Made by a program: the position numbers and the translations under genes
The notes under the pieces: model-generated
Seen by the model: only the letters and a program-made list of their open reading frames with translations
Database searches by the model: none
Told to the model about the DNA's origin: nothing
Shown: in pieces, positions 2,962 through 19,050 of the stretch
Layout: each line of letters begins with the position of its first letter
How positions within the stretch are numbered: the first letter of the stretch is position 1
Virus record (IMG/VR): IMGVR_UViG_3300015195_000063
Span: 1-25,630 of that record
DNA length: 25,630 nt
Direction: 5' to 3' (one strand)
Source of the DNA: a virus

Positions 2962-3776
2962 TAGCGGCACTCACCGATATCGCCAGCGTTTGCGACGGGA
3001 GCAAGCGCTGGTGTGTCGTACAGGCCGATTGTCTGGAGATCATGCGGTGTCTGCCCGAGCGGCTGGTGGCGCATGTGATTACGGATCCGCCGTACTCGGC
3101 GGCCGTGCACTCTCGGTCGATTCGGCGCACGTATCTGCCGGACGTGGCGGATCAGCCGTGTCGTAAAACGCGCGCGTTCGCGTTTGGATTCGACCATCTC
3201 ACGCGCGAACTATGTGCGCAGTATGCGGGCGAATTTCTACGCGTGGCGTCTCGCTGGGTGGCCACGTTCGCCGACGTCGAGATCGACTCGTGGTGGCGTG
3301 AATCGTTTGGCGATACGTATGTGCGTACAGGCGTGTGGGTCAAAGACCGGGCGATGCCGCAGATCAGTGGCGACCGGCCATCGTCACGCGTCGAGCACAT
3401 CGTGATCGCCCACCGTAAGGGACAGAAACGATGGAACGCGCGACCTGATGGCGGCGATTCCAACGTGTGGCAGTGCCCAGTCGTGGCCAACTGCAACGGA
3501 CATCGCACCGATCGGATTCACACCGCCCAGAAACCCGTAGAGATCATGCTGGATCTCGTCGAATCCTTCACCGATCGGAATGATCTAATCCTAGACCCGT
3601 TCGCCGGCAGTGGCACCACTGGCGTAGCCGCGCTACGACTCGGCCGGCGCGTGATCGTCATCGAGCGCGACGAAACATACGCCAAGCTCTGCGTCGAGCG
3701 CATGACTGCCGAGGAGGCCGGCAGTACGCTACTCGCGGCACGGGCGAAGCAAGTGCCGCTATACGGTGCGACGTGA
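2880..3776 (+). CDS. Beta-class DNA methyltransferase (N6-adenine or N4-cytosine)
   Basis: With ATG 2880 the protein has 298 aa. Catalytic motif IV DPPY is at 69-72 and comes before the SAM-binding motif I DPFAGSGTTG at 239-248. A motif X-like HTAQKPVE lies just before motif I. This circular order defines the beta class. Asp-Pro-Pro-Tyr favours adenine-N6 but does not exclude cytosine-N4. No cognate restriction enzyme is adjacent, so it probably protects phage DNA. The frame stays open upstream to GTG 2517 and ATG 2529 (with AGGTGG before it). That would give a Glu/Gln-rich N-terminus overlapping the Lys-rich gene for its whole length, but its codons often end in A there, unlike the neighbours. 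The start is therefore uncertain; the catalytic core is not. Confidence 0.85.
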   Translation: MRSERKERKGREQSELIRRAGDQLQALIAALTDIASVCDGSKRWCVVQADCLEIMRCLPERLVAHVITDPPYSAAVHSRSIRRTYLPDVADQPCRKTRAFAFGFDHLTRELCAQYAGEFLRVASRWVATFADVEIDSWWRESFGDTYVRTGVWVKDRAMPQISGDRPSSRVEHIVIAHRKGQKRWNARPDGGDSNVWQCPVVANCNGHRTDRIHTAQKPVEIMLDLVESFTDRNDLILDPFAGSGTTGVAALRLGRRVIVIERDETYAKLCVERMTAEEAGSTLLAARAKQVPLYGAT

Positions 3777-4283: not shown

Positions 4284-4604
4284 ATGCCGACCGATCGTTC
4301 AGCCCTGGAGACCTTGCTGGATCAGACGCTCGATCTCATGCAGACGAGCTGGCTCCTCGGTGACCTCCGACGTCACCGGGCGCGCAAGCTCATTGCGTGT
4401 GGACAGCGTCGCCGCCTTGCGTTCCAGCGCGATTACGTGCTCGCGATCGACGCGCTCGAGCTGGCGCACCGCGCGTTCGACCAGTGCGAGGCAGCCGCGC
4501 TCCGTGCGGCGCGGATCATCTCGGCCATGCGGCGGGACGAGCACGTGCTGACGCGGGAGATACTGCGGGAGCTAGGGACCGATGAGGATCGACTGACGTC
4601 GTGA
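4284..4604 (+). CDS. Small helical protein, unknown function
   Basis: The protein is 106 aa from ATG 4284, with GGGAGC about 9 bases upstream. It is rich in Leu, Ala, Arg and Glu (LLDQTLDLMQTSWLLGDL, ALELAHRAFDQCEAAALRAA) and probably all alpha-helical, perhaps a coiled-coil adaptor. I do not recognise a family. Codons end mostly in G/C in this frame, in contrast to the competing frame that starts with ATGA at 4177. The 103 bp before it (4181-4283) hold no convincing gene. Its stop overlaps the next start in GTGA. Confidence 0.65.
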   Translation: MPTDRSALETLLDQTLDLMQTSWLLGDLRRHRARKLIACGQRRRLAFQRDYVLAIDALELAHRAFDQCEAAALRAARIISAMRRDEHVLTREILRELGTDEDRLTS

Positions 4605-5599
4605 TCGCCCCATTCCCGTACTTTGGCGGCAAACGCACGATCGCGGAGACCGTGTGGCGAGCCTTCGGGAGCCCCAAGCAGTACATCGAGCCTTTCTGCG
4701 GCTCCGCGGCCGTGCTCCTGTCCGCTCACGAGCCGGCGTCGCTCGAGGTCATCGGCGACGCGAACGGATTCATTGCGAACTTCTGGCGAGCCGTCGTAGC
4801 GCAGTCCGAGCAGGTCGCGCGATGGGCCGACTATCCCGTCTCGCACGTCGACCTCGGCGCACGACACGTCTGGATGATGGGCGAGCGCGATCGTCTCGCG
4901 GCAGACCTGCAGGATCCAAACTGGCCGGGGAACGCGAAGCTCGCCGGCTGGTGGCTATGGGGTCAGTGCTCGTGGATTGGATCCGGGTGGTGCGAGTGGT
5001 CCGGCCAGGTCCCCCACGTCGGCAACGCGGGCATGGGCATCCAGGCCACCGGCCAGGTCCCCCACGTCGGCAACGCGGGCAGGGGCATCCAGGCCACCGG
5101 CCAGGTCCCCCACGTCAGCAGCGCGGGCATGGGCATCCAGGCCACCGGCAAGGTCCCCCACGTCAGCGACGCGGGCAGGGGCGCCTATGATCCGTGGACA
5201 TCGAGCGGACGCGTGGCGATGCGCTGGCTGCGTGAGCTCGCCGATCGCATGGAGCGCGTTCGCGTGGTGCACGGCGCGTGGGATCGCTGCCTCAACTCGC
5301 ACTACGGCGCAGAGCTGACGGCGATCTTCCTCGACCCGCCATACAAGGCATACGAAAAGCTGTACGGCGTGAGCGAGCCGGTAGCGGCCGACTGCGAGGC
5401 GTGGGCACGGGAAAACGCTGCACTCCGCGTCGCACTCTGCGGGCACCGGGGCGACTACGACCTGCCCGGCTGGGCGGTGCACGAGTGGGATCGCGGGCGT
5501 CTCACCTATGGCGGAGCCACTACGACGGCGCAGGAGTGTATCTGGCTTTCGCCGGCATGCCTGCCGCTCATGGCCAAGCAAACAGCGCTCTTTGGGTGA
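4601..5599 (+). CDS. Dam/D12-class adenine-N6 DNA methyltransferase with internal repeats
   Basis: This 332-aa protein starts at GTG 4601, overlapping the previous stop. The alpha-class order is visible: FPYFGGKR at 5-12, SAM motif I IEPFCGSAAVLL at 29-40, and catalytic DPPY at 245-248. Between them, where D12 enzymes hold the target-recognition region, lie almost four copies of a 16-residue repeat (residues 135-195, GQVPHVGNAGMGIQAT-like). I recall similar PHxGxAGxG repeats in other phage D12 enzymes, so the repeat is probably functional. The enzyme likely methylates adenine in phage DNA to evade restriction or mark replication. It is the second DNA methyltransferase in the cluster. Confidence 0.87.
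   Translation: MIAPFPYFGGKRTIAETVWRAFGSPKQYIEPFCGSAAVLLSAHEPASLEVIGDANGFIANFWRAVVAQSEQVARWADYPVSHVDLGARHVWMMGERDRLAADLQDPNWPGNAKLAGWWLWGQCSWIGSGWCEWSGQVPHVGNAGMGIQATGQVPHVGNAGRGIQATGQVPHVSSAGMGIQATGKVPHVSDAGRGAYDPWTSSGRVAMRWLRELADRMERVRVVHGAWDRCLNSHYGAELTAIFLDPPYKAYEKLYGVSEPVAADCEAWARENAALRVALCGHRGDYDLPGWAVHEWDRGRLTYGGATTTAQECIWLSPACLPLMAKQTALFG
5003..5191 (+). repeat. 48-bp in-frame tandem repeat, about 3.9 copies
   Basis: Units start at 5003, 5051, 5099 and 5147. Each codes for 16 residues of the type G-(Q/K)-VPHV-(G/S)-(N/S/D)-(N/A)-AG-(M/R)-G-IQAT; the last copy breaks off after AGRGA. Copies 1 and 2 are almost identical at DNA level, suggesting recent duplication or recombination. Unit length is divisible by 3, so copy-number change keeps the methyltransferase frame. 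Confidence 0.93.
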
Positions 5600-7834: not shown

Positions 7835-8086
7835 ATGGCGTTGATGGCGAGGAAAACGGCAGCGAATGAGCCGGCGCCGGTCACGTCACCGAAGCGCTCC
7901 GAGCGTTTGCGGATCGGCCTGTCCGTGGCTGGAGTCACGCGGATCACCGGGATCCTCGAGAGCACCGTGGTGGCCTTCGAACGCGGGGAGCCGGCCGGGT
8001 GCACGTCGGAGCAGCTAGATCTTCTCGAGCGAGCGTACGGTCTGATGGGCGCCCTCTACGCGGCGCGGGACACGGTGAAGTCGTGA
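7835..8086 (+). CDS. Small HTH (XRE-like) DNA-binding protein
   Basis: The protein is 83 aa from ATG 7835. ATG 7844 and TTG 7808 are alternatives, and none has a strong ribosome-binding site. After a basic leader comes RLRIGLSVAGVTRITGI-LESTVVAFERGE, which resembles the helix-turn-helix of Cro/CI-type regulators, with STVVAFERG as recognition helix and following turn. It is then followed by one more helical segment. It stands directly behind the palindrome at 7792-7804 and could repress its own operon or the region leftward. The family match is loose. Its stop overlaps the next start. Confidence 0.6.
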   Translation: MALMARKTAANEPAPVTSPKRSERLRIGLSVAGVTRITGILESTVVAFERGEPAGCTSEQLDLLERAYGLMGALYAARDTVKS

Positions 8087-8283
8087 GGTGGATTGCTGCG
8101 GTGTGGCCCGGATGGTGGCTGGTTGCGATCTGGGCGGTTCTGTTCGCCGCTACGCGACCTGCGTTCGCCGTCGAGGGTTTCGCCTGCCAGCACACGAGCC
8201 AGTGCAGCAACCGGGAGCTGTGCGTGGCGGAGTCGCCCACGTCGACGTGGGGCATTTGTCGGCGGATTACGGTGTTGCCGTGA
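8083..8283 (+). CDS. Small exported Cys-rich protein
   Basis: The protein is 66 aa from GTG 8083 (GTGA overlap). It has a Trp-rich hydrophobic N-terminus (WWLVAIWAVLFAA) ending in PAFA-VEG, a plausible signal peptidase I site. The mature part is about 37 residues with four cysteines (CQHTSQC-SNRELC-...-GIC). The spacing resembles the CxxDxDCxxGxxC modules of myxobacterial surface proteins, so it may be a mini-version taken from the host. If the signal is not cleaved it would be a one-pass membrane protein. No function is assigned. Confidence 0.6.
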   Translation: MRWIAAVWPGWWLVAIWAVLFAATRPAFAVEGFACQHTSQCSNRELCVAESPTSTWGICRRITVLP

Positions 8284-8717
8284 AGGCATTGAGTGGCCGT
8301 CAGCCGTGGTGGTGGGCGATCCTGCACGCTGGGAAGCGGATCGAGAATCGTACGTGGGGGACGTCGTATCGAGGGCCGATCCTGCTGCACGCAGCGAAGG
8401 GCTGCACGGCGAGTGAGTATATCAGCGCAGTGGATTGGATGTTGGATGCGGGCGTCGTCGAGCACGAGACTAATGTGCCGTCGCTCGCCGACATGCAGCG
8501 AGGTGGCATCATAGGATGCGCGCGCATTGTCGCCGTGCTTCCACCGGGTGGACAAATCCGCCCAAGGAACGGGCGCTACAGGATGCCAGAGTGGTGGGGC
8601 GACATTGATATTAGGTGGCGAATGGCAGATCAATACGGATGGATCCTGGCCGACGTCGAGCCTCTTCCGTTCGTTTCGTGCAGGGGCCATCTCGGTCTGT
8701 TCGAGGTTGCGCCGTGA
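8280..8717 (+). CDS. ASCH domain protein
   Basis: The protein is 145 aa from GTG 8280, overlapping the previous stop. It opens with ALSGRQPWWWAILHAGKRIE and NRTWGTSYRGPILLHAAKG, the hallmark of ASCH (PUA-like) domains. It later shows GGIIGCARIVAV and ends with a YGWILADVEPLPFV...GHLGLFEV block, also usual. ASCH domains bind RNA or modified nucleosides, and some family members are nucleases or amidohydrolases of N4-acetylcytidine. Phage versions are common, and their role is unknown. The full domain is present with nothing else attached. Confidence 0.85.
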   Translation: MKALSGRQPWWWAILHAGKRIENRTWGTSYRGPILLHAAKGCTASEYISAVDWMLDAGVVEHETNVPSLADMQRGGIIGCARIVAVLPPGGQIRPRNGRYRMPEWWGDIDIRWRMADQYGWILADVEPLPFVSCRGHLGLFEVAP

Positions 8718-9070
8718 CGACGAAGCCGAATCGCCACGACGCGAAACAGCTGCAGCAGCGTCAGGAACCGTCACCGGATGCGAAGAGCTACGAGGATCAG
8801 ATCCGCGCGCTCATCGAGGCGGAGACGGCGCGGCTGCACGAGAAGGATCCGGTCATGCAGCTGACGGAGGCTGGCCGGTCGAAGGCGATCGCGAATCTCG
8901 TCAAGCTACGCGCCGAGCTCGGGAGTGGTCTTAGCGATGCGCAGATCATCCAGATACCAGGGTTTCAACGGCTGATGAACACGATTTACAAAGCGCTCGA
9001 GCCGTGGCCGGACGCGTATCAGGCGGTGCTGGCGGCGCTAAAACAGGTGACGGATGGAGGCGGACGATGA
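8714..9070 (+). CDS. Conserved-looking phage protein, unknown function
   Basis: The protein is 118 aa from GTG 8714 (GTGA overlap). The N-terminal 20 residues are polar and Gln-rich. A helical region follows (YEDQIRALIEAETARLHEK, RSKAIANLVKLRAELGSG, FQRLMNTIYKALEPWPDA). The all-helical make-up and size would fit a small terminase or DNA-packaging adaptor, but it sits 4 kb from the large subunit and lacks a clear HTH, so I leave it unnamed. ATGA overlap with the next gene. Confidence 0.6.
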   Translation: MTTKPNRHDAKQLQQRQEPSPDAKSYEDQIRALIEAETARLHEKDPVMQLTEAGRSKAIANLVKLRAELGSGLSDAQIIQIPGFQRLMNTIYKALEPWPDAYQAVLAALKQVTDGGGR

Positions 9071-9456
9071 ACGGCGCGAACGGCGCGAACGGTGAGGAGT
9101 GGGTCATTCTGCTCGCGGGTGGTCGCATGATGATCGGGCGGGACGTCGATCCGGCGATATCGGTGCGCATGCGGATCGCGCCCGTGTTTGATCTCAATGT
9201 GCAGGTGCAGCCTGTCGCGGGCGGTCAGGTGAACGTGAGTTACCAGGCGGTCCCGATCATGCTGCTCCCGACCCTCGATGCTCTCGAGTTCGACCGGGCA
9301 ACGACGGTCACGAAACGACTTTCGGACCTCGGACCGGAGGATCGTAGACGGCTGATGGGTGCGGTGCGATCCGGTCAGGAGATCCAGACCAGCATGCGCG
9401 CGCAGACGGCAGGCGTGGCGCTGCCGAGGATCGTTATGCCTGGAGGCCGACAGTGA
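9067..9456 (+). CDS. Unknown protein, probably beta-rich
   Basis: The protein is 129 aa from ATG 9067 (ATGA overlap). It begins with an Asn-Gly-Ala low-complexity repeat (NGANGANGEE). A strand-rich middle follows (WVILLAGGRMMIGRDV, VRMRIAPVFDLNVQVQPV), then a short helical part. No catalytic motif or family is recognised. It is embedded in the same overlapping gene string as its neighbours, which supports expression. Confidence 0.58.
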   Translation: MNGANGANGEEWVILLAGGRMMIGRDVDPAISVRMRIAPVFDLNVQVQPVAGGQVNVSYQAVPIMLLPTLDALEFDRATTVTKRLSDLGPEDRRRLMGAVRSGQEIQTSMRAQTAGVALPRIVMPGGRQ

Positions 9457-10049
9457 CCTGGCAGGAGATCCCCGGATGGTTTGGATTCCAGGACACCTAC
9501 GATCTTGCCGTGCGCGAGGCCAAGGATGGGGCCGTGTTCGTCGAGGTCGGTGTGGCCTTCGGGCGCTCGCTCGCGTACCTATCGCGCGCTGTCATCGACT
9601 CCGGCAAGCGCGTGAAGATCTGGGCCATCGATCCGTTTTGGGACGATTGGTGGCATGTGCCGGAGCAGTATCCGACGCACCTCGAGCGGCCAACGTGGGG
9701 CGGCGAGCACTCGCAGTTCGGCCGCGACCTCGGCGGACCGTTTAGCGCGTTCGTGCACTGCATGCGGACTCACGCGCCGGAGGAGCTCGAGCGCGTCAAC
9801 GTGCTTCGGTGCCGCTCGGCCGAGGCTGCGCAGATAATCGGATCGTGTGACTTGGTGATGATCGACGCGGATCACAATTACGCCGCAGTGGCTCAGGACA
9901 TCGCGCTTTGGCGACCGCACATCAAGACGGGCGGTCTGCTCGCGGGTGACGACTACTCGACGGACTTCCCTGGGGTGATTCGAGCCGTGGGCGAGGCTTT
10001 CGGGCCGATGGCGGAGAACGTGGGGACGACCTGGCGGGTGCGGTTGTGA
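9453..10049 (+). CDS. Class I SAM-dependent methyltransferase (Methyltransf_24-like)
   Basis: The protein is 198 aa from GTG 9453 (GTGA overlap). SAM motif I is FVEVGVAFGRS near 29-39. The second strand carries the acidic IDPFWDDW, and strand 4 gives VMIDADHNYAAVAQDI with D138, D140 and H141. It ends with GGLLAGDDY. This is the pattern of small O-methyltransferases of the Methyltransf_24 type, often beside glycosyltransferases. The substrate is probably a sugar or small molecule rather than DNA (no DPPY or PC motif). It is a tandem paralogue of the next gene. Confidence 0.82.
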   Translation: MTWQEIPGWFGFQDTYDLAVREAKDGAVFVEVGVAFGRSLAYLSRAVIDSGKRVKIWAIDPFWDDWWHVPEQYPTHLERPTWGGEHSQFGRDLGGPFSAFVHCMRTHAPEELERVNVLRCRSAEAAQIIGSCDLVMIDADHNYAAVAQDIALWRPHIKTGGLLAGDDYSTDFPGVIRAVGEAFGPMAENVGTTWRVRL

Positions 10050-10609
10050 GCTGGACCGACATCCCGGGGTACTCGGGTTTCGAGTGGCTGTACGCGGAGT
10101 TTGCTGCGACGGCGCCGAAGAACGCGATCGCTGTGGAGGTGGGCGTAGCGCTCGGTCACTCGGTCGCATACCTTGCGCGACTGCTGATCGACGCGGGACG
10201 CACGGACGTGCAGGTATGGGCGGTCGACCCGTGGGCAGGCGTCGCGCGCAACGGCGAGCAGCAAGAGGCGCTCGGTACTGCGCCGCGCGGGGACTTTCGG
10301 CTGTTTCTCGATCAGATGATCGCGCACGCGCCGGAGGAGCTCGAGTTCATCAGGATCGTGCGTGCGCCTTCCGAGGTGGCAGCGGAAATGTTTTTCTCGC
10401 TGTTCCCGACTCTCGTGCTCATCGACGCAGCGCACGATTACGATAGCGTGGCGCTGGACATCTCGGTCTGGTCGCGATGCGTGCGGTCTGGAGGGATTCT
10501 GGCTGGCGACGATCACGAGCCGAACTATCCGGGCGTGGAGAGGGCGTGTCGAGAGGCGTTCGGAACGGACTACAAAGTCGCGGGGAGCACATGGCATCGA
10601 CGGATGTGA
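10046..10609 (+). CDS. Class I SAM-dependent methyltransferase, tandem paralogue
   Basis: The protein is 187 aa from GTG 10046, overlapping the preceding paralogue. The two align along their length: W-x-(E/D)-IPG-(W/Y)-x-GF at the start, VEVGVALGHSVAYLARLLID for VEVGVAFGRSLAYLSRAVID, then VLIDAAHDYDSVALDISVW and GGILAGDDHEPNYPGV. The acidic residue D140 of the first copy is replaced by Ala here (IDAAHDY), so substrate or metal use may differ. The middle is about 10 residues shorter. Duplication followed by divergence is the simplest explanation. Confidence 0.82.
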   Translation: MSWTDIPGYSGFEWLYAEFAATAPKNAIAVEVGVALGHSVAYLARLLIDAGRTDVQVWAVDPWAGVARNGEQQEALGTAPRGDFRLFLDQMIAHAPEELEFIRIVRAPSEVAAEMFFSLFPTLVLIDAAHDYDSVALDISVWSRCVRSGGILAGDDHEPNYPGVERACREAFGTDYKVAGSTWHRRM

Positions 10610-10785
10610 AGTCGAGTGAGGTATCGAGCACGGAGTGCGGCTGCGTGTTGCTTGAGAGCACGGACGGAACAACTCTGATAAATCTCTGCGCGTGGCACAC
10701 GAGAGCGATCCAGCACTGCGATCGCGTCGTGTTGGCCGGAGCGATTCGCGAAATGGTGATCACAACGACGGTGGCGGCAGGATGA
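10591..10785 (+). CDS. Mini-protein with Cys-x-Cys and Cys-x-x-His
   Basis: The protein is 64 aa from ATG 10591, starting inside the 3' end of the methyltransferase, with CGGGGAG close upstream. After a Ser/Thr-rich leader it has ECGCVLLES, a DG turn and LCAWHTRAI. The C-x-C plus C-x-x-H arrangement looks like a single small zinc-binding knuckle. Many phages carry short proteins of this kind. Its function is unknown. It ends in an ATGA overlap with the glycosyltransferase. Confidence 0.62.
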   Translation: MASTDVKSSEVSSTECGCVLLESTDGTTLINLCAWHTRAIQHCDRVVLAGAIREMVITTTVAAG

Positions 10786-12401
10786 GCGAGATAACGATCA
10801 GCCTAGCGATTCCGCACACGCCTTGGATTCCGGCGCGCGTGGAGAGCTTAGGCAGACTGCACCACGCGCTAGGACTGAATCTCACGACACACCCGCCTCT
10901 ATGGGTCCGCCGCACGAAGCTATTCACCGAGCGCGCGCCGAACTGGAAATGGTCCGCCGACCTCTGGGGCTGGCTCGTCGAGTCCGGAACGTCGCACGGG
11001 CTCACGCTGCAGGACGATTGCATCGTGTCGCCGAACTTCTGGCCATCGCTACGCGCGATGCTCGAAGCGGTCCCCGACCAGGTGATCTGCCTCGAAACCG
11101 TCCATCCAGCCGCGCAAGCCCTGGCGCGCGAGGGACACCGATGGTTCACGACGTCGGACGCACTCGTCGGCGTGGGTTACGTGCTGCCCATTGCGCTGCT
11201 GCGTGAGTTCCTCGCGTGGCGATCGTCCGCGCTGAAACTGGGCGCGGTCGAACGGATCAACGAGGACACGCTCCTTGGACTTTGGTGCATGGTGACGGGC
11301 CGTAAGATCTGGCACCCGCTGCCGACGATCATCGATCACGACGTCGAGCAACCGAGCACGTATGGCAACGATGGGCATACGGCGAGACGGCCGCTCGTTC
11401 GGTGGGATACAGCGAGCGCCCCCGACGTGATTTACGACGGCATGGAGGAGGGCTGGTCGACTGCCGGTAAAATAGTCCCGCACCTCGGCCGGTTCCCCGG
11501 CTGGACCGTTCCACAGCTCGCTCTAGCGGAGGTCGAAGGGGTCACGCCGGCCGACGTCGCACGGTGGATGTCTGACGACGGGCGCAAGGTGCTGCGGCAG
11601 CTGGAATACGCACGCCGCGCGCGGGAGCCTGCAGCGGAGCCGAAACGCCGGATCTACATCGCGGTCCCTCACCGGGGCTCGACGCATCCGGAGCACACGC
11701 GATCGATCGTGACGCTCTGCGCGACGACGAGCGGCGTGGAGTTCGTGCTACCGACAGCGATCGAGACGTACGCGCAGACGGGCACAGATCTCGTGCGCGC
11801 AAGATCCAGAATGGTGCGGCAGTTTCTCGACACAGACTGTACCGATCTGCTGTTTCTCGACGCGGACATCAGTTTCGACGTCGCCGCGATCGCCGGCATG
11901 CTGGCGACGGAGCGGGACGTCGTGCTGTGTCCGTACCCGAAACGCCAGGGCGGTGCCGGTGGCGCGATTCACTGGGAGAACGTGGCGAAGGCAGCACCGG
12001 AGGACAAGAGCCATCCGGAGTCAAGGGCGTACGCGTACGCGCTTCGGGTGGTCGACGGCGGGGATCAGTCGGTGCAGTCGGATGGCACCGTGGAGATCGC
12101 CGGCTTCGGACTCGGGTGCTGTCTGATAAGCCGATCGTGTCTCGAGAAAATGGCCGCGTACTACGAGGCGGCGGACGGGTTCGACGATCGCTTTCTCGGC
12201 CAGCCAGTGCCGACCGTGGGGCTGTTCAAGCAGATCCACGAGGGGCGGGAGCTGCACTCGGAGGACTACTCGTTCTGCTACCGATGGCGCGCGATGGGCG
12301 GGAAAGTGTGGATGTACCTCGGCCCAGGGTCTCCAGTGACCCACCATGGGGATCACGCGTTTCGTGGGCACCTGGAGGCGTTCGGGCTACGGCGCGGGTG
12401 A
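10782..12401 (+). CDS. Two-domain glycosyltransferase
   Basis: The protein is 539 aa from ATG 10782. The N-terminal part (to about 230) holds LTLQDDCIVSPNFW with D78-D79, similar to GT25-like or other GT-A donors sites. The C-terminal part (about 285-539) starts RRIYIAVPHRGSTHPEH and has TDLLFLDADISFD with the metal-binding D360-A-D362. It goes on with VVLCPYPKR, GFGLGCCLISRSC and EDYSFCYRWRAMGGKVWM, as in GT-A enzymes of phages and of the Anp1-like group. Two GT-A folds in one chain suggest transfer of two sugars or one active and one degenerate domain. The target could be the virion, phage DNA or the host envelope. The tandem methyltransferases upstream may decorate the same glycan. Confidence 0.8.
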   Translation: MSEITISLAIPHTPWIPARVESLGRLHHALGLNLTTHPPLWVRRTKLFTERAPNWKWSADLWGWLVESGTSHGLTLQDDCIVSPNFWPSLRAMLEAVPDQVICLETVHPAAQALAREGHRWFTTSDALVGVGYVLPIALLREFLAWRSSALKLGAVERINEDTLLGLWCMVTGRKIWHPLPTIIDHDVEQPSTYGNDGHTARRPLVRWDTASAPDVIYDGMEEGWSTAGKIVPHLGRFPGWTVPQLALAEVEGVTPADVARWMSDDGRKVLRQLEYARRAREPAAEPKRRIYIAVPHRGSTHPEHTRSIVTLCATTSGVEFVLPTAIETYAQTGTDLVRARSRMVRQFLDTDCTDLLFLDADISFDVAAIAGMLATERDVVLCPYPKRQGGAGGAIHWENVAKAAPEDKSHPESRAYAYALRVVDGGDQSVQSDGTVEIAGFGLGCCLISRSCLEKMAAYYEAADGFDDRFLGQPVPTVGLFKQIHEGRELHSEDYSFCYRWRAMGGKVWMYLGPGSPVTHHGDHAFRGHLEAFGLRRG

Positions 12402-12864: not shown

Positions 12865-14502
12865 GTGACCGAGCAAGCGTACAAGCCGCGCGGTCCACGA
12901 AAGCAGCGATCGCTCGAGGAGTACGCCTACGCGCACGGCGTAAAATACGCGGCGCTGCACGGCATAGGAGAACTTCCGTGGGAACGCTGGAAACGGGATC
13001 CGGTCGCGTACGTCAAAGAGCGGCTGCTCGAGCCGATCGTGATGCCGCATCAGGTGGACATCCTGAGAGCGCTCGCGAGCGGGGCAGCCGGCACGGCCAT
13101 GTCCCGCGTGTCGGTGCGGTCTGGGCACAAGCCTGGCAAGACGCGCCTAGCGATCTGGGCGGTGTGCTGGTTCTTCGAGTGCTTCGACGGCGCCCTCGTG
13201 TACCTATGCGCCGCGATTGAGAAGCAAACGAAAAACGTGCTGTGGGCCGAGCTGGAACGCGTCGTGCGTGAGGCGCGAGCGCGCGGCGTCGAGATCGCCT
13301 GGCAGCTACCTCGCTCTCCCTCCGGTGGCGTGATGAGCGTCGACGGGTCGCGACGGATCATCGGGATCGCGGGGCGCGAGGTCGAATCACTCGCGGGCCT
13401 TTCCGGGCGCTTGTTTTTCGTGATCGATGAGGCCAGCAGCTTACCGGCGAACAAGGCCGAGGCGTTTCACGGCAACATGCTTGGCGGTGGCCTCATGCTG
13501 TGGATCTCGAATCCCACACGCACGGTCGGCCCCTTCTTCGAAACGTTTTTCTCGCAGAAAGAGTACTGGCAGAATTTCTGGATCGACTGCGAGAAGGTCG
13601 CCGCGTGGGTCGACGATAACAACCTGCGCAAGCTCCTGCCGTACGTGACCAATCGCTCGAGCGTGCTCGAGGCGCGCGGCATTTATGGAGGCGTCGACAA
13701 TCCGATCTACAAGATTCGCGTTCGTGGTGAGTTCGTGTTGAACGAGCAGGGGCGCGCGATTTCGCTGGCGGAGATCATCGACGCGCACGAGCGGTGGGAG
13801 TTTGCGCCGGAGGACGGGGTGCTGACAGTGGGGCTCGATCCGGCTGGACCGGGGAAGGGCGGCGACGATACGGCGTTTGCTCTGCGCCGCGGCAACAAGG
13901 TGCTGTGCATCTTCCGGTTCTCAGGGATCACCGAGGACGACATCATTCAGCACTTGCTCGCGTTCCTGCGACAGTACAAGCACCCGGATGAGGAGCCGAT
14001 CGTCAACGTCGATGCGGAGGGACCGATCGGCGGATCGCTGTACGGTCGCCTCCGCGCGATTTCGAACGGCACGACGCCGGGGCATCGGTTTACGGTGTTC
14101 TCCGTACGCGCCTCACTGCCGGCCCGTCGAGAGCCGCAGCTATACGAGCGCACCCGCGAGGAGCTGTTCGCGAATCTGGCGAAGTGGCTGCGAGAGGGCG
14201 GGGCGATCCCTCCGGATCCGAAGCTCGACGCAGAGCTACACGATCCCGTATGGATCGGACAGGTGGGGCCAAAACTGAAATTGAGCTCGAAGGAGCAGAG
14301 TCGCGAACGGCTCGGGCGCTCGACAGACGGGGCCGATGCGGTCGCGCTGTCCGTGTGGACTGCGGTGCGCACGCAACCGGCAGCGCAGGAGTCGCCGGCG
14401 CACCCTACCGACGTCTATTTTCAGCAACCGTTTCAGGCGCAGGCGAGCGCCGACGATTTCTATCAGGTTCCGGACGGAATGGGCGGATCGGACGGATTCT
14501 GA
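12865..14502 (+). CDS. Terminase large subunit (ATPase and nuclease)
   Basis: The protein is 545 aa from GTG 12865; the open frame reaches back to 12757 but overlaps the previous gene. The packaging ATPase has Walker A GHKPGKT at 87-93 and Walker B FFVIDEAS with D188-E189, followed by a coupling-type WISNPTR. The RNase H-like nuclease shows VGLDPAGPGKGGDD (D325), VNVDAEG (D383) and DGADAVAL (D491), the usual acidic triad. Size and layout fit Mu gp28-like and related TerL proteins. Its 3' end overlaps the convergent portal gene by 40 bp. No small terminase is identified with confidence. Confidence 0.92.
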   Translation: MTEQAYKPRGPRKQRSLEEYAYAHGVKYAALHGIGELPWERWKRDPVAYVKERLLEPIVMPHQVDILRALASGAAGTAMSRVSVRSGHKPGKTRLAIWAVCWFFECFDGALVYLCAAIEKQTKNVLWAELERVVREARARGVEIAWQLPRSPSGGVMSVDGSRRIIGIAGREVESLAGLSGRLFFVIDEASSLPANKAEAFHGNMLGGGLMLWISNPTRTVGPFFETFFSQKEYWQNFWIDCEKVAAWVDDNNLRKLLPYVTNRSSVLEARGIYGGVDNPIYKIRVRGEFVLNEQGRAISLAEIIDAHERWEFAPEDGVLTVGLDPAGPGKGGDDTAFALRRGNKVLCIFRFSGITEDDIIQHLLAFLRQYKHPDEEPIVNVDAEGPIGGSLYGRLRAISNGTTPGHRFTVFSVRASLPARREPQLYERTREELFANLAKWLREGGAIPPDPKLDAELHDPVWIGQVGPKLKLSSKEQSRERLGRSTDGADAVALSVWTAVRTQPAAQESPAHPTDVYFQQPFQAQASADDFYQVPDGMGGSDGF

Positions 14503-15860
14503 GACGCTGCGGCGTCCGGCTCGGTGGAAACCTCCGGCGTCGGTCCCTTCTCGGTCGGCACGCCGAATCGCGCGAGCAATTCGATCAGGTTCAGGCGCAC
14601 GTGATCGGCATCGTCTGGCGATTGTGCCGCAGCCATCGCCTCGACGAGCCCCTTGACGGCATTCGCGACGGTGACGAGCGTATTCGCCTCGACCGTGCGA
14701 TCTTTCGGTGCGGACACATCCGTTTCGACGCGCGTCGAGTTTTTCAGCGCATCGGTGCCCCATTTCCGACCGATGAAACCGGGCAGGATCTGCGTATTGA
14801 CCGTGTGATCCCACGATCCGCTCGTCGTTCCGATCAAATCGGTCTGAACGACGCGAAACACGTCCATATTGCTGAATCCAGCGGTTCCCTGGAGCATGAC
14901 GGCCGATCCGCAGAGCGCGGTAGCGATCTCCTCATTGTGATTCTTGATCGCCTGGTCGTATATGTTGATCCCCTCGCCTTTCGACTCGATCAGCTTGAGA
15001 TCCCATCCGACAGGCAGAGAAAACGCCGCATTGAACGACCATTTGATGATCTGCGAGAGAAAGCCGGCTCGCTCCTCTTCGCTCGCGCCGAGTGGTGCCG
15101 TGGCAACGCGTGCAGGATGCGCGTGCTTCGTGACGTACGCCTGACGGGCGAAAATAACTTGGGTCTTATTGATGTACGAGCGGCCGAGCGTGTTCCATAG
15201 ACCGTTGTTCCACGGCGCCAGGCGCCCACCGCCCATGTGCAGGACCCAAGAGTTCCCGTTCGCGTCCGGAAGTCCCGGAGTGATCGGGATCAGGCCGACG
15301 AGCGATCGGTAGTACCACTGATTCTTGCTCCACATGTAATAGAGATTCTGTGGAAACCGTCGCACGAGCACCGGGAAGTCCCTGCCCACGACGGGGACCA
15401 TCTCACCGACAGACACGCCGCAACAGATCTCGTCGCTCACCATGAGCTTAGATTCGCTGGTCGGGATCATCTCCGTGTAGACGTCGCGATCGCTGGCGTT
15501 ACGCGACTGCAGCACATCGATCACGTCCTTGGATCCGTAAAATCGCCTCGGGAAATTCACGACGGACGTGCGCGCGTCGAGCAAGCCGCGGATCACGCCG
15601 TCTAGTTTCATCGATTCGTTCAGCTGCCCGACGAGCAAGAGATCCCCGTTGCTGGCAAGCCGCTGCGCCCGCTCGACGTCGGGCGGATACCAGCGGAGCC
15701 GAACCTGCGGGATCGTCTCGAGCGAGCCACCCATCGCCTCGCGGACTCGGTGCGTGACCTCGTCGCCGAGTTCTGGCCCTGGCTGCGTGGGCGGCTGAAA
15801 CGTGGAGATCCCGAGTAGAGCGGCGATCAGGTCCTTGAACGACTCACCAACGGAGGGCAT
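14463..15860 (-). CDS. Portal protein, DUF935 (Mu gp29-like), on the minus strand
   Basis: The protein is 465 aa from ATG at 15860 on the minus strand, with AGGGG just upstream. It resembles DUF935 portals: GVIRGLLDARTSVV, CCGVSVGEMVPV, RRFPQNLYYMWSKNQW and IKWSFNAAF. The strongest block is IESKGEGINIYDQAIKNHNEEIATAL near residues 300-325. The portal is the dodecameric ring at the head vertex through which DNA is packaged. In Mu-like phages it follows terL on the same strand; here it runs opposite. It is convergent with terL (40-bp overlap) and 5 bp after the LacI-like gene. The C-terminus is a Pro/Ser/Glu-rich tail. Codon use looks like its neighbours, so it is not an obvious foreign insert. 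Confidence 0.88.
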   Translation of the reverse strand: MPSVGESFKDLIAALLGISTFQPPTQPGPELGDEVTHRVREAMGGSLETIPQVRLRWYPPDVERAQRLASNGDLLLVGQLNESMKLDGVIRGLLDARTSVVNFPRRFYGSKDVIDVLQSRNASDRDVYTEMIPTSESKLMVSDEICCGVSVGEMVPVVGRDFPVLVRRFPQNLYYMWSKNQWYYRSLVGLIPITPGLPDANGNSWVLHMGGGRLAPWNNGLWNTLGRSYINKTQVIFARQAYVTKHAHPARVATAPLGASEEERAGFLSQIIKWSFNAAFSLPVGWDLKLIESKGEGINIYDQAIKNHNEEIATALCGSAVMLQGTAGFSNMDVFRVVQTDLIGTTSGSWDHTVNTQILPGFIGRKWGTDALKNSTRVETDVSAPKDRTVEANTLVTVANAVKGLVEAMAAAQSPDDADHVRLNLIELLARFGVPTEKGPTPEVSTEPDAAASQNPSDPPIPSGT

Positions 15861-15865
15861 GGCCC

Positions 15866-16054
15866 CTAGACTACGTCAAGCGCCGCCACCACACCGGCAT
15901 AACCGAGCCGAGTCGCCGCAGCACGCACCGCGGCGCGTGACTGATCGGTCCCGTCGCCGCGGAGAACAGCCCTCACCGTTCGCGTGTCGCGGCATGCCTC
16001 GGCAGCGAGCCGGTAGAGGTCATCTGGGCGCAGTCTGATACAAGCCGGCTGCAT
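15866..16054 (-). CDS. Stand-alone LacI-type HTH headpiece
   Basis: The protein is 62 aa from ATG at 16054 (minus strand); the frame could extend to 16129. Residues DLYRLAAEACRDTRTVRAVLRG ... SRAAVRAAATRLGYAG follow the LacI-family pattern (VARLAGVSxxTVSRVLNG...TRxRVxxAAxxLGY). No sugar-binding domain follows, so this is a DNA-binding unit only. It sits 5 bp before the portal start and shares its strand, so the two are very likely co-transcribed. Palindromes at 16059-16074 and 16085-16098 lie just upstream and may be its operators. No good ribosome-binding site is seen. Confidence 0.6.
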   Translation of the reverse strand: MQPACIRLRPDDLYRLAAEACRDTRTVRAVLRGDGTDQSRAAVRAAATRLGYAGVVAALDVV

Positions 16055-16058
16055 ACTT

Positions 16059-16074
16059 GCTACAAGCTTGCAGC
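16059..16074. promoter_or_regulatory. 16-bp operator-like palindrome
   Basis: GCTACAAGCTTGCAGC reads as a palindrome with seven of eight pairs matched (mismatch at 16062/16071). It ends five bases before the LacI-like start codon, in the divergent region. LacI-family sites are symmetric and of this length, though they often have a central CG rather than GC. Confidence 0.5.
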
Positions 16075-16084
16075 ACATAGGAGA

Positions 16085-16098
16085 AAACGTCAACGTTT
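16085..16098. promoter_or_regulatory. AAACGT-CA-ACGTTT inverted repeat
   Basis: A perfect 6+2+6 inverted repeat lies in the middle of the 120-bp divergent region between the minus-strand regulator/portal pair and the plus-strand protease gene. It is a candidate operator or promoter element for either direction. On the minus strand it contains TTGACG, but no convincing -10 follows at the right distance. Confidence 0.5.
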
Positions 16099-16173
16099 CG
16101 CGACGAGGAGCGCACGCTGTGCCACGCAATGTGGTTCACATGAGGCGTGCCCCATCGCTTCATCGTGGCAGCC

Positions 16174-17433
16174 ATGGCGATCGCCCTGACGCAAGACGGC
16201 GTCGAGCGGCCAGGCCCGAATGCAGCGCCCACGGCGTTCCGGATCTGGAGCGCCGGGGCGAACGCGACGGACATGGGCCGGCACGTTTTTAGCGAGACAT
16301 CGGCCGCGCTGCTGATGTCCACGCAGGCCAAGCGCGGGAACAAATTCTCGATCGACGTCGACCATTTGAGCCTGAATGACACGGCGCCGCCAGAGTCTCG
16401 CAAGGCTGTCGGGTGGCACCGGCTTGCTGTCCGGCAGAGCGTCAACGGGCCGGAATTGTGGGCCGTCGACGTCGAATGGACCGACGCGGTGAAGGCGGGA
16501 CTTGAGAAGAATCCGCCAGAGTGGCGCTACTTCTCGCCCGCGTATCACATCGCGAAAGACGGCGAGATCGATCAGTACATCAACACTGCGCTCACGAACA
16601 ACCCGGCCACGCACGACGTGACCGCGCTCGCATCAATGGTGAGGACATCAATGGATTACAAAGAGATGGCGTCGGCCTTGTTTGGCGAGGACGACGACAA
16701 AAAAAAGGCCGCGAAAGAGTCCTACACCAAGATGAGCGAGCTCGAAAAAAAGGCGTTCAAGGCGGCGTGGAAAGCGGCATCAGACTTCGGCGACAGTGAC
16801 GGCGACGTCGACAAGAAAGACGAACCGAAAAAGGAGGAAGCCACGAAAGCGGCCGCCTCCGAAGACGACAAGAAAAAGGAAGAGGCCGCGATCGCCGCGA
16901 CGAAAGCCTCCGAAGACGCGAAGAAAGAGGAGGCCAAGGTCGCCGCTGCCGCTTCCGCCCGCGAGCTCACCCTAGCCGCTCGAGTGCAGTCACTAGAGTC
17001 AGCCGCTGCCGCTCGAGCAGCCGCGGACGCAGCCGCTGCCGACGTGCGCGAGCGCGAAGCAATCTTCGCCAAGCGACCGGACATCAGCCAAGCGATCCGC
17101 GCAACGCTCGCAACGCTGCCGCTCGATGGCCTGCGCAAGTTCGTCGAGGCTATGCCTCGCGTACAAGCGGCCGGAGGCTCATCGGTGCAAGCCTCACTCG
17201 CAGGCGGAGCCGTGACCGGAGGGGAGCGCCGAGCGGCGTTCGTTCCGCAGCTCGACGATGACGAGCGCAAGATCTTCGCCAACATTCGCCCAGCCTCGCG
17301 CGGTGCAGTTCGCGCAACGAGCCGTGGCACATCGCTGGTGATGCCGTCCACGACTCCGACTCGCGCGGAAGCTCTCGCGCGCGTTGCTGAACTCGACAAA
17401 GAGCTCGAAGCAATCCAAGCGGAGCGAGTCTAA
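16174..17433 (+). CDS. Mu gpI-like prohead protease with scaffold domain
   Basis: The protein is 419 aa from ATG 16174; GTG 16147 or 16165 are alternatives and none has a clear ribosome-binding site. Residues 1-150 match the Mu I protease region: FRIWSAG, then FSIDVDHLSLN, KAVGWHRLAVR, PELWAVDVEWT and EWRYFSPAYHI. From about 165 on the protein is Lys/Glu/Ala/Asp-rich (KKEEATKAAASEDDKKKEEAA) with an Ala-rich coiled coil, then a conserved-looking tail. This is the protease-plus-scaffold organisation of Mu-like heads: the scaffold shapes the prohead and the protease then removes it. It starts the plus-strand head module after the inverted portal segment. Confidence 0.85.
   Translation: MAIALTQDGVERPGPNAAPTAFRIWSAGANATDMGRHVFSETSAALLMSTQAKRGNKFSIDVDHLSLNDTAPPESRKAVGWHRLAVRQSVNGPELWAVDVEWTDAVKAGLEKNPPEWRYFSPAYHIAKDGEIDQYINTALTNNPATHDVTALASMVRTSMDYKEMASALFGEDDDKKKAAKESYTKMSELEKKAFKAAWKAASDFGDSDGDVDKKDEPKKEEATKAAASEDDKKKEEAAIAATKASEDAKKEEAKVAAAASARELTLAARVQSLESAAAARAAADAAAADVREREAIFAKRPDISQAIRATLATLPLDGLRKFVEAMPRVQAAGGSSVQASLAGGAVTGGERRAAFVPQLDDDERKIFANIRPASRGAVRATSRGTSLVMPSTTPTRAEALARVAELDKELEAIQAERV
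16651..17433 (+). CDS. Nested in-frame scaffold (Mu gpZ-like), internal start
   Basis: Inside the protease gene, ATG 16651 (MDYKEMASALFG) has TGAGG at 16640-16644, six bases upstream, a better ribosome-binding site than the full-length start has. It lies at the junction between protease domain and charged scaffold region and would give a 260-aa scaffold. In phage Mu the scaffold gpZ is made in the same way from within gene I. Expression here is inferred. Confidence 0.55.
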   Translation: MDYKEMASALFGEDDDKKKAAKESYTKMSELEKKAFKAAWKAASDFGDSDGDVDKKDEPKKEEATKAAASEDDKKKEEAAIAATKASEDAKKEEAKVAAAASARELTLAARVQSLESAAAARAAADAAAADVREREAIFAKRPDISQAIRATLATLPLDGLRKFVEAMPRVQAAGGSSVQASLAGGAVTGGERRAAFVPQLDDDERKIFANIRPASRGAVRATSRGTSLVMPSTTPTRAEALARVAELDKELEAIQAERV

Positions 17434-17879
17434 TGGCTGATCTCATCGCGACACGTGTTGTGCTGGTACCGCGCGGCACGATCAAGAAAACAACGTATCC
17501 GCTCATCGCTGGAGGCAAGGCCACCGAAGGTTGCATCGTCGGCTACGACACGGGGGCCTACGGCTCGATCAAAGGCACCGGGCTCACCGCCTCTACGTTC
17601 GTGCCGATCGGATGGGCGCTTGACACGAAAGACAACTCAGCGGGCGGCACCAACGTGCCGTGCGGTGTGGAGCTTTCGGAGGAGATCGAGCTATCGTACT
17701 GGGATTCGGTGACAGGAGCGGGCGCGATCACGGTCGCGAACCTGTTCCAGAACGTGTACGTAGCCGACAATCACACACTCACGACGTCTGCCGGTGGTTC
17801 CATCGCCGGACGCGTATTCGCGATCAGCCCGGGCGGTTACCCTGGTGCGGTCGGCATCAGGATGACGCGCCCCGTCTAA
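17433..17879 (+). CDS. Putative head decoration protein
   Basis: The protein is 148 aa; ATG 17433 overlaps the previous stop (TAATG). The sequence is rich in Gly, Thr, Ala and Val with repeated strand-turn character (TTYPLIAGGKATEGCIVGYD, SAGGSIAGRVFAISPGGYPGAVGI), as in small trimeric capsid-stabilising proteins. It sits between the protease/scaffold and the major capsid gene, where decoration proteins are commonly encoded. I see no exact family signature, so the role rests on size, composition and position. Confidence 0.6.
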   Translation: MADLIATRVVLVPRGTIKKTTYPLIAGGKATEGCIVGYDTGAYGSIKGTGLTASTFVPIGWALDTKDNSAGGTNVPCGVELSEEIELSYWDSVTGAGAITVANLFQNVYVADNHTLTTSAGGSIAGRVFAISPGGYPGAVGIRMTRPV

Positions 17880-17922: not shown

Positions 17923-19050
17923 ATGGCTCAGGGCGCGTACACAGCAGACTTCAACTTCTCTATCGAGAAGGAGATGAAGGTTATCAACGAGCGCGGATAC
18001 ATGAACATGCTCTCTTCGGAGAACATCTGGTATCCGAAGATCCTTCGTCAGCGCCCGATGGAGGGCAAGAGCGAGCGGTTGACGTGGCTCCTGTCCACCG
18101 CATCGATCGAGCAGATCACGCCGAACGACGGCGGAGAGAACGGCGGATCGATCAACTTCGATGCGCTCGCAACAATCACGCAGGAGTTCTTCCCGGCCGA
18201 GCATCGCAAGGGCTACAAGATCGGCAAGCTCAAGTTTCTGAACTTCCTGAACGGCGGGATCAACCCGGCCGCTCGCTGGGCCGAGGACATCGGCACGTAC
18301 GGCGCGTACTACCCGCAGCGACTGCTTGCTCAGGTGATCCTCTACGGGGGCACGCTGATCGGATACGACGGCGTCTCGTTTTTCAACACGGCGCACCCGG
18401 TCCACCCGCTCATCCCGGCGCTCGGTACGTACGCGAACGATTTCACGGGCGCAGCATCGGGAGGGTACCCAGGCGCGCTGCCGATCGACGACTCGGTCAC
18501 GATCGACGTAGCGGCAACGAACCTGTCGAAAGCCCTCTCGTACATCATGGGTCGCGTACGCCAGCCGAACGGGGCCGGCGATCCACGCCTGCTCGAGCCG
18601 GCGTATCTCATGTACCCGCCTCGCATGGCCGCACGCGTCGAGATGCTACTCGACTCGGATTTCATCCCGCAGCAGTCCACTGGTGGAGCTGGGAGCGCCG
18701 ATATCAAGGCGTTTTTCAAGAAGTTCCGCCTGTCGGAACCTGTCCTCGCAAAGGAGCTTGACGCGGGCACCACGTACACGTTTCCCGGTCCGACCGGCGC
18801 AACTGTGTCCGTGTCTGGCAGCGACACGACGTACTACATCGCGACCAAAGAGGCATCGAGCACGGAGCTGGGCGCGTTCATCGAGAACCGCAGGCTACCG
18901 TTCACTCTGCACACGTACTCGGGTGAGAGCGGGAGCGAGGGCGTCGACGCCGTCCTTGGTCGCTCGCACGATCTCGAGTGGCACTATGACGGGTGGACCG
19001 CGGTAAACCCTGGCCATCCGTACGGATTCTTCCGGTTCCAGGGGGCCTAA
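17923..19050 (+). CDS. Major capsid protein (Mu gpT-like)
   Basis: The protein is 375 aa from ATG 17923 with AAAGGA about 9 bases upstream. Features of the Mu gpT group: an N-terminal helix ending in NERGYMNMLSSENIWYPKI, SERLTWLLST, FFPAEHRKGYKIGKLKF, and the motif YDGVSFFNTAHPV near 147-159. A SYIMGRVRQPNG helix follows, then a long region ending in WHYDGWTAVNPGHPYGFFRF. It forms the HK97-fold shell of the head. The good ribosome-binding site after a 43-bp gap fits high expression. Confidence 0.87.
   Translation: MAQGAYTADFNFSIEKEMKVINERGYMNMLSSENIWYPKILRQRPMEGKSERLTWLLSTASIEQITPNDGGENGGSINFDALATITQEFFPAEHRKGYKIGKLKFLNFLNGGINPAARWAEDIGTYGAYYPQRLLAQVILYGGTLIGYDGVSFFNTAHPVHPLIPALGTYANDFTGAASGGYPGALPIDDSVTIDVAATNLSKALSYIMGRVRQPNGAGDPRLLEPAYLMYPPRMAARVEMLLDSDFIPQQSTGGAGSADIKAFFKKFRLSEPVLAKELDAGTTYTFPGPTGATVSVSGSDTTYYIATKEASSTELGAFIENRRLPFTLHTYSGESGSEGVDAVLGRSHDLEWHYDGWTAVNPGHPYGFFRFQGA

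Follow-up and report, generated by a model that had tools for sequence, protein, structure and literature searches.

An inverted portal gene, accompanied by a gene for a miniature DNA-binding protein, lies within the head module of the 25,630-nucleotide stretch of viral DNA analysed here (hereafter the window). The portal gene is of the Mu type (DUF935) and is located on the minus strand, directly downstream of a gene for a 62-amino-acid helix-turn-helix (HTH) protein that resembles the headpiece of LacI. The arrangement is real and conserved; compared with known phages, it looks less like a novel type of switch than like a variant of the split head operons of P2. We consider it probable, though well short of certain, that the locus is organized as a divergent regulator and promoter hub before the head operon, wherein the portal gene has moved to the regulator's side. 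The relevant features of the window are as follows.

8615 to 9070, plus strand: candidate small terminase subunit (TerS), C-terminal part only (TerS-like family profile, E=2.8e-19)
12865 to 14502, plus strand: terL, large terminase (start taken as the GTG at 12865; PHROG 2, E=6.5e-24)
14463 to 14502, both strands: 40-bp stretch in which the 3′ coding ends of terL and portal converge and overlap
14463 to 15860, minus strand: inverted Mu-type (DUF935) portal gene, 465 aa (PF06074, E=1.2e-23; seven inverted homologues)
15866 to 16054, minus strand: 62-aa LacI-headpiece-like HTH gene, directly upstream of portal (from homologues, a PDB profile comparison and an AlphaFold2 model)
16055 to 16146, between genes: divergent intergenic region separating HTH (minus) from gpI (plus), with presumed promoters and operator (read from sequence)
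16147 to 17433, plus strand: gpI protease/scaffold, with which the plus-strand head operon begins (PF10123, Mu-like_Pro, E=1.5e-19; start approximate)
17433 to 17879, plus strand: small virion structural protein (PHROG 1731, E=3.6e-9)
17923 to 19050, plus strand: major capsid protein, gpT-like (PF10124, E=3.6e-4; 48 related contigs)

An earlier note on this DNA had reported that the portal and HTH genes are the only ones on the minus strand and that the former overlaps terL by 40 bp. The coordinates, strands and overlap proved exact on recheck, and the remaining identifiable genes of the window are all on the plus strand. The Portal_Mu profile (PF06074) scores 84.4 bits on the window portal against a curated cut-off of 23.9. 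The HTH ORF begins with an ATG at 16054 and ends with a TAG located 5 bp from the portal ATG, and about 90 bp separate its start from that of gpI at 16147. Tail genes, including one for a DUF2586 sheath, are located downstream of the gpT-like capsid gene. There is no room for a shared terminator within the 40-bp overlap of terL and portal, and the overlapping of these 3′ ends is also evident in three related loci (L019, L020 and L027), where the stop codons of the two genes share bases in the sequence CTAA or CTAG. Elsewhere in the window, tandem repeats at 4980–5200 fall inside a gene (4601–5599) whose translation carries recurring GQVPHVGNAGMGIQAT-like peptides.

The inverted portal was recovered in seven related contigs (six plus a seventh), each from other metagenomes, and the six that were compared share 58–72% portal identity with the window. 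All eight members of this clade have portal and gpI on opposite strands, and the same holds for portal and terL in those contigs that include terL. Capsid-based and portal-based searches yielded 111 contigs whose gene orientation could be scored, of which 98 are colinear, 10 have an inverted portal and three an inverted terL; these counts are not frequencies, given that some contigs are near-duplicates and that sampling was centred on the window. The 10 inverted contigs comprise the window's clade and the L040/L043 group, which has no small HTH gene. Nine of the 10 include terL, and in each of these it converges with the portal. The inversion pointed out earlier is conserved and not a matter of chance, with the order terL(+), portal(−), gpI(+) kept in relatives from other metagenomes. 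In L148, L149 and L154, the three contigs with an inverted terL, the minus-strand terL and the plus-strand portal point away from each other, which is a further flip in the same packaging module.

The window's clade is strongly supported in both portal and gpT trees, and the L039 group adjoins it in the latter. Two changes of orientation are reconstructed on each tree. The inversion may nevertheless have arisen either once or twice, as approximately unbiased (AU) tests disagree, giving p=0.0009 for terL, p=0.034 for gpT and p=0.09 for portal with a sparse set of sequences, and p=0.56 for portal and p=0.089 for gpT with a dense one. A portal pattern search of genome_contigs uncovered no relative, and a capsid pattern search of the same collection found distant relatives only (mainly Armatimonadetes, one Myxococcota and one labelled Klebsiella); therefore no host was assigned.

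The small protein is, on the combined weight of profile matches and its predicted fold, a genuine LacI-headpiece-like domain, as the earlier note had supposed. A five-member profile compared with PDB chains matched CcpA (E=2.7e-6), a LacI-type protein (E=4.6e-6) and the lac headpiece (E about 0.2), and a wider nine-member profile again recovered the LacI family (E=3.7e-5). The AlphaFold2 model (pLDDT 88) has four helices at residues 10–20, 24–31, 37–50 and 53–61, and its best Foldseek matches are CcpA, the lac headpiece, CelR and PurR, with probabilities of 0.95–0.98 and weak E-values (best 0.69) that can be expected for 62 residues. It shares the DNA-binding headpiece with LacI/GalR repressors in sequence and predicted fold, and differs from them in lacking the C-terminal ligand-binding core of approximately 270 aa, since the ORF stops at 62 aa. 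Homologues are likewise about 60–75 aa long and match with E-values of 1e-30 to 1e-12 in related loci. A single-sequence search of viral_contigs with the window HTH gave no match, the HTH alignment proved too variable to yield a search pattern, no Pfam model scored above its cut-off for standalone LacI headpieces, and PHROGs yielded only weak matches to single members of the mini-LacI-HTH family. A Pfam match of the 62-aa protein to GTA-gp10 (E=0.009) was dismissed as under the family cut-off. Standalone LacI headpieces within head modules look like an undescribed family of small regulators.

Lack of conservation of the 62-aa ORF had been named in advance as a refutation, but homologues are found directly before the inverted portal in four relatives (L002, L014, L016 and L017, also represented by the cuts L022, L019, L024 and L023 of the same contigs). 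Including the window, five of the eight clade members carry the HTH gene on the portal's strand and no more than about 45 bp upstream. It was not found in the other three (L003, L005 and L015, with L027, L025 and L020 as further cuts), and it is missing beside five of the 10 inverted portals overall. The HTH is not needed for the layout, because these three phages and the L040/L043 group maintain the inversion without it. Homologues are also associated with colinear portals: the order is portal(+), HTH(−), gpI(+) in L039, and terL(+), HTH(−), portal(+) in L081/L082, L110 and L088. A clear match was obtained at nine distinct loci, and at every one of them the gene is a minus-strand member of the head module and diverges from the plus-strand head gene next to it. 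The HTH is not tied to the portal and, in our best reading, was already beside the head operon before the portal was inverted. ARAGORN did not confirm a tRNA-like stretch that had been spotted visually in L039.

A plus-strand late transcript cannot read the inverted portal, and so the gene needs a minus-strand promoter of its own, as had been argued from the window. Most simply, this promoter would sit in 16055–16146, the interval shared with gpI. Scans for promoters and terminators produced no reliable candidates, and no sigma-70 consensus was found in 16055–16146. The near-palindrome TGCTACAAGCTTGCAGCA is located just upstream of the HTH ATG, and relatives have near-palindromes as well. Palindrome content shows no overall excess relative to matched controls (p=0.12 for the window, with mixed results in relatives). 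Given that a DNA-binding protein is encoded first in the minus-strand unit, the layout suggests autoregulation, possibly of both arms.

In the divergent hub that we favour, a rightward arm would drive the plus-strand operon from gpI through capsid and tail genes, and a leftward arm would drive the minus-strand unit consisting of the mini LacI-like HTH and then the portal, running into the 3′ end of terL. An ancestral inversion would have placed the portal behind the HTH or, where the HTH is absent, immediately after the divergent promoter. If only the portal were inverted in a gene order like that of L039, the exact order of the window would result, and we infer an ancestor of this kind. The HTH is predicted to bind an operator in 16055–16146 and to autoregulate the HTH–portal unit, and probably the gpI promoter too. 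Portal level would thereby be uncoupled from capsid level, and terL and portal transcripts may interfere with each other where they overlap. A point against the hub is that a headpiece lacking the core has no evident means of dimerizing.

A portal that diverges from the scaffold and capsid operon is already known in P2. There, as in the window, the portal is on the strand opposite the scaffold/protease and capsid genes with a short shared control region in between, and the P2 sequence (NC_001895) has an activator site at 3057–3087 between its divergent units (Q, P versus O, N, M and onward). The two systems differ in that P2 terL (P) is co-directional with the portal and is the gene nearest the promoter, whereas terL is convergent with the portal here, and in the presence here of a LacI-like mini-protein. 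The late units of P2 use the Ogr activator; the window, a fragment of a phage genome, gave no match to Ogr_Delta (PF04606). Among cultured relatives, MMP7 (Meiothermus), Riverbug (Thermus) and RS1 (Rhodovulum) share the portal family and the portal–protease–capsid order, but their portal is colinear with terL and capsid, and the terL–portal gap contains a short plus-strand gene (annotated as TerS in Riverbug). The mini-HTH also recalls regulators of the Cro/CI type, which are likewise small, free-standing HTH proteins encoded divergently from a phage operon, although it is LacI-like rather than Cro/XRE-like and is found in the head module rather than a lysis–lysogeny region. The divergence of portal from capsid is known, and no description of the exact arrangement was found in the openly available literature, the coverage of which is incomplete.

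Each capsid has a single portal ring, and the low portal-to-capsid ratio is usually ascribed to operon position and translation. A conserved lineage with the portal in its own transcription unit, beside close relatives without this feature, constitutes a natural experiment on that ratio. A bolder proposal, which we regard as doubtful, has two forms. In one, a LacI headpiece lacking the core, translated from the transcript that also encodes the portal, would feed back on both arms and set the portal-to-capsid ratio. In the other, mini-HTHs of this kind next to the portal would be DNA-recognition subunits that have become detached from the packaging motor. If true, either would be a new way to coordinate the portal with head assembly.

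Several other explanations were weighed against the divergent hub. It is possible, if unlikely, that the portal flipped by chance and stayed functional because a minus-strand promoter was already present, with the HTH as unrelated cargo. In favour of this, the presence of the HTH changes five to six times on the trees, and the inverted terL of L148, L149 and L154 indicates that flips of the module are tolerated in this group. However, the strand and junction type of the HTH are constant in nine loci, and the inverted layout has been kept across approximately 40% protein divergence. The earlier note had instead proposed a dedicated switch for portal dosage or timing, in which the HTH exists to control the portal alone. 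The two genes are probably co-transcribed and coupled, given the 5-bp gap in the window and the TAATG stop/start overlap that joins them in L006/L016. All the same, the idea is not supported and seems rather unlikely, because of the absences of the HTH described above and its association with colinear portals in four other lineages.

Another view, which we hold to be quite improbable, is that the small HTH is a packaging protein, specifically a detached DNA-binding domain of the small terminase subunit, and not a transcription factor. Many colinear relatives (L101, L117, L123, L133, L141 and others) carry in the gap between terL and portal, directly before the latter, a different, plus-strand HTH of the Cro/XRE type and about 60–90 aa. 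This widespread protein matches the HTH domain found in a family of TerS-like proteins whose genes precede terL. The name TerS is based on position and domain layout, and none of the Pfam terminase models matched this family. The window's own TerS candidate, located 3.8 kb before terL, lacks the HTH part present in its relatives. A packaging role for mini-HTHs is possible because of this match and this missing domain. Against it, the LacI-like HTH of the window barely aligns with the TerS-like family (hhalign probability 8.7%, E=0.0038), and L019, L081 and L110 encode the mini-HTH in addition to a full TerS-like protein with its HTH. As far as their sequences indicate, the LacI-like HTH and the Cro/XRE-type gap HTH are not clearly related. 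Between the TerS candidate and terL (9453–12401) are two Methyltransf_24 genes and a glycosyltransferase-like gene, which are apparently cargo.

An invertible segment flipped in a phase-variable manner by a site-specific recombinase would account for an HTH–portal unit that alone is reversed and nested among plus-strand genes. This seems very improbable, given that no convincing flanking inverted repeats are present (the best long-range pairs, 76–81% over 21–25 nt, are chance-like), that no serine recombinase (PF00239) was found in the window, itself a genome fragment, and that the orientation is identical in all clade members. An assembly chimera, a concern with any single metagenomic contig and raised as such in the earlier note, is excluded, since seven further contigs from different metagenomes have the same order.

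Some additional variation was observed within the clade. The terL gene of L024, which is on the same contig as L016, groups outside the rest of the inverted clade, and this suggests that terL was exchanged beside a conserved inverted portal. L016 also has an 890-aa portal ORF (7974–10646) that comprises the portal and about 430 additional in-frame residues of no clear family, followed on the same strand by a metallophosphoesterase-like gene. The N-terminal protease domain of gpI has been swapped among clade members whose C-terminal parts are homologous: it is of the Mu gpI type in the window, L002 and L014, and S49/SppA-like in L003, L004, L005, L006 and L007, with the L004 domain matching PF01343 at E=2.1e-20.
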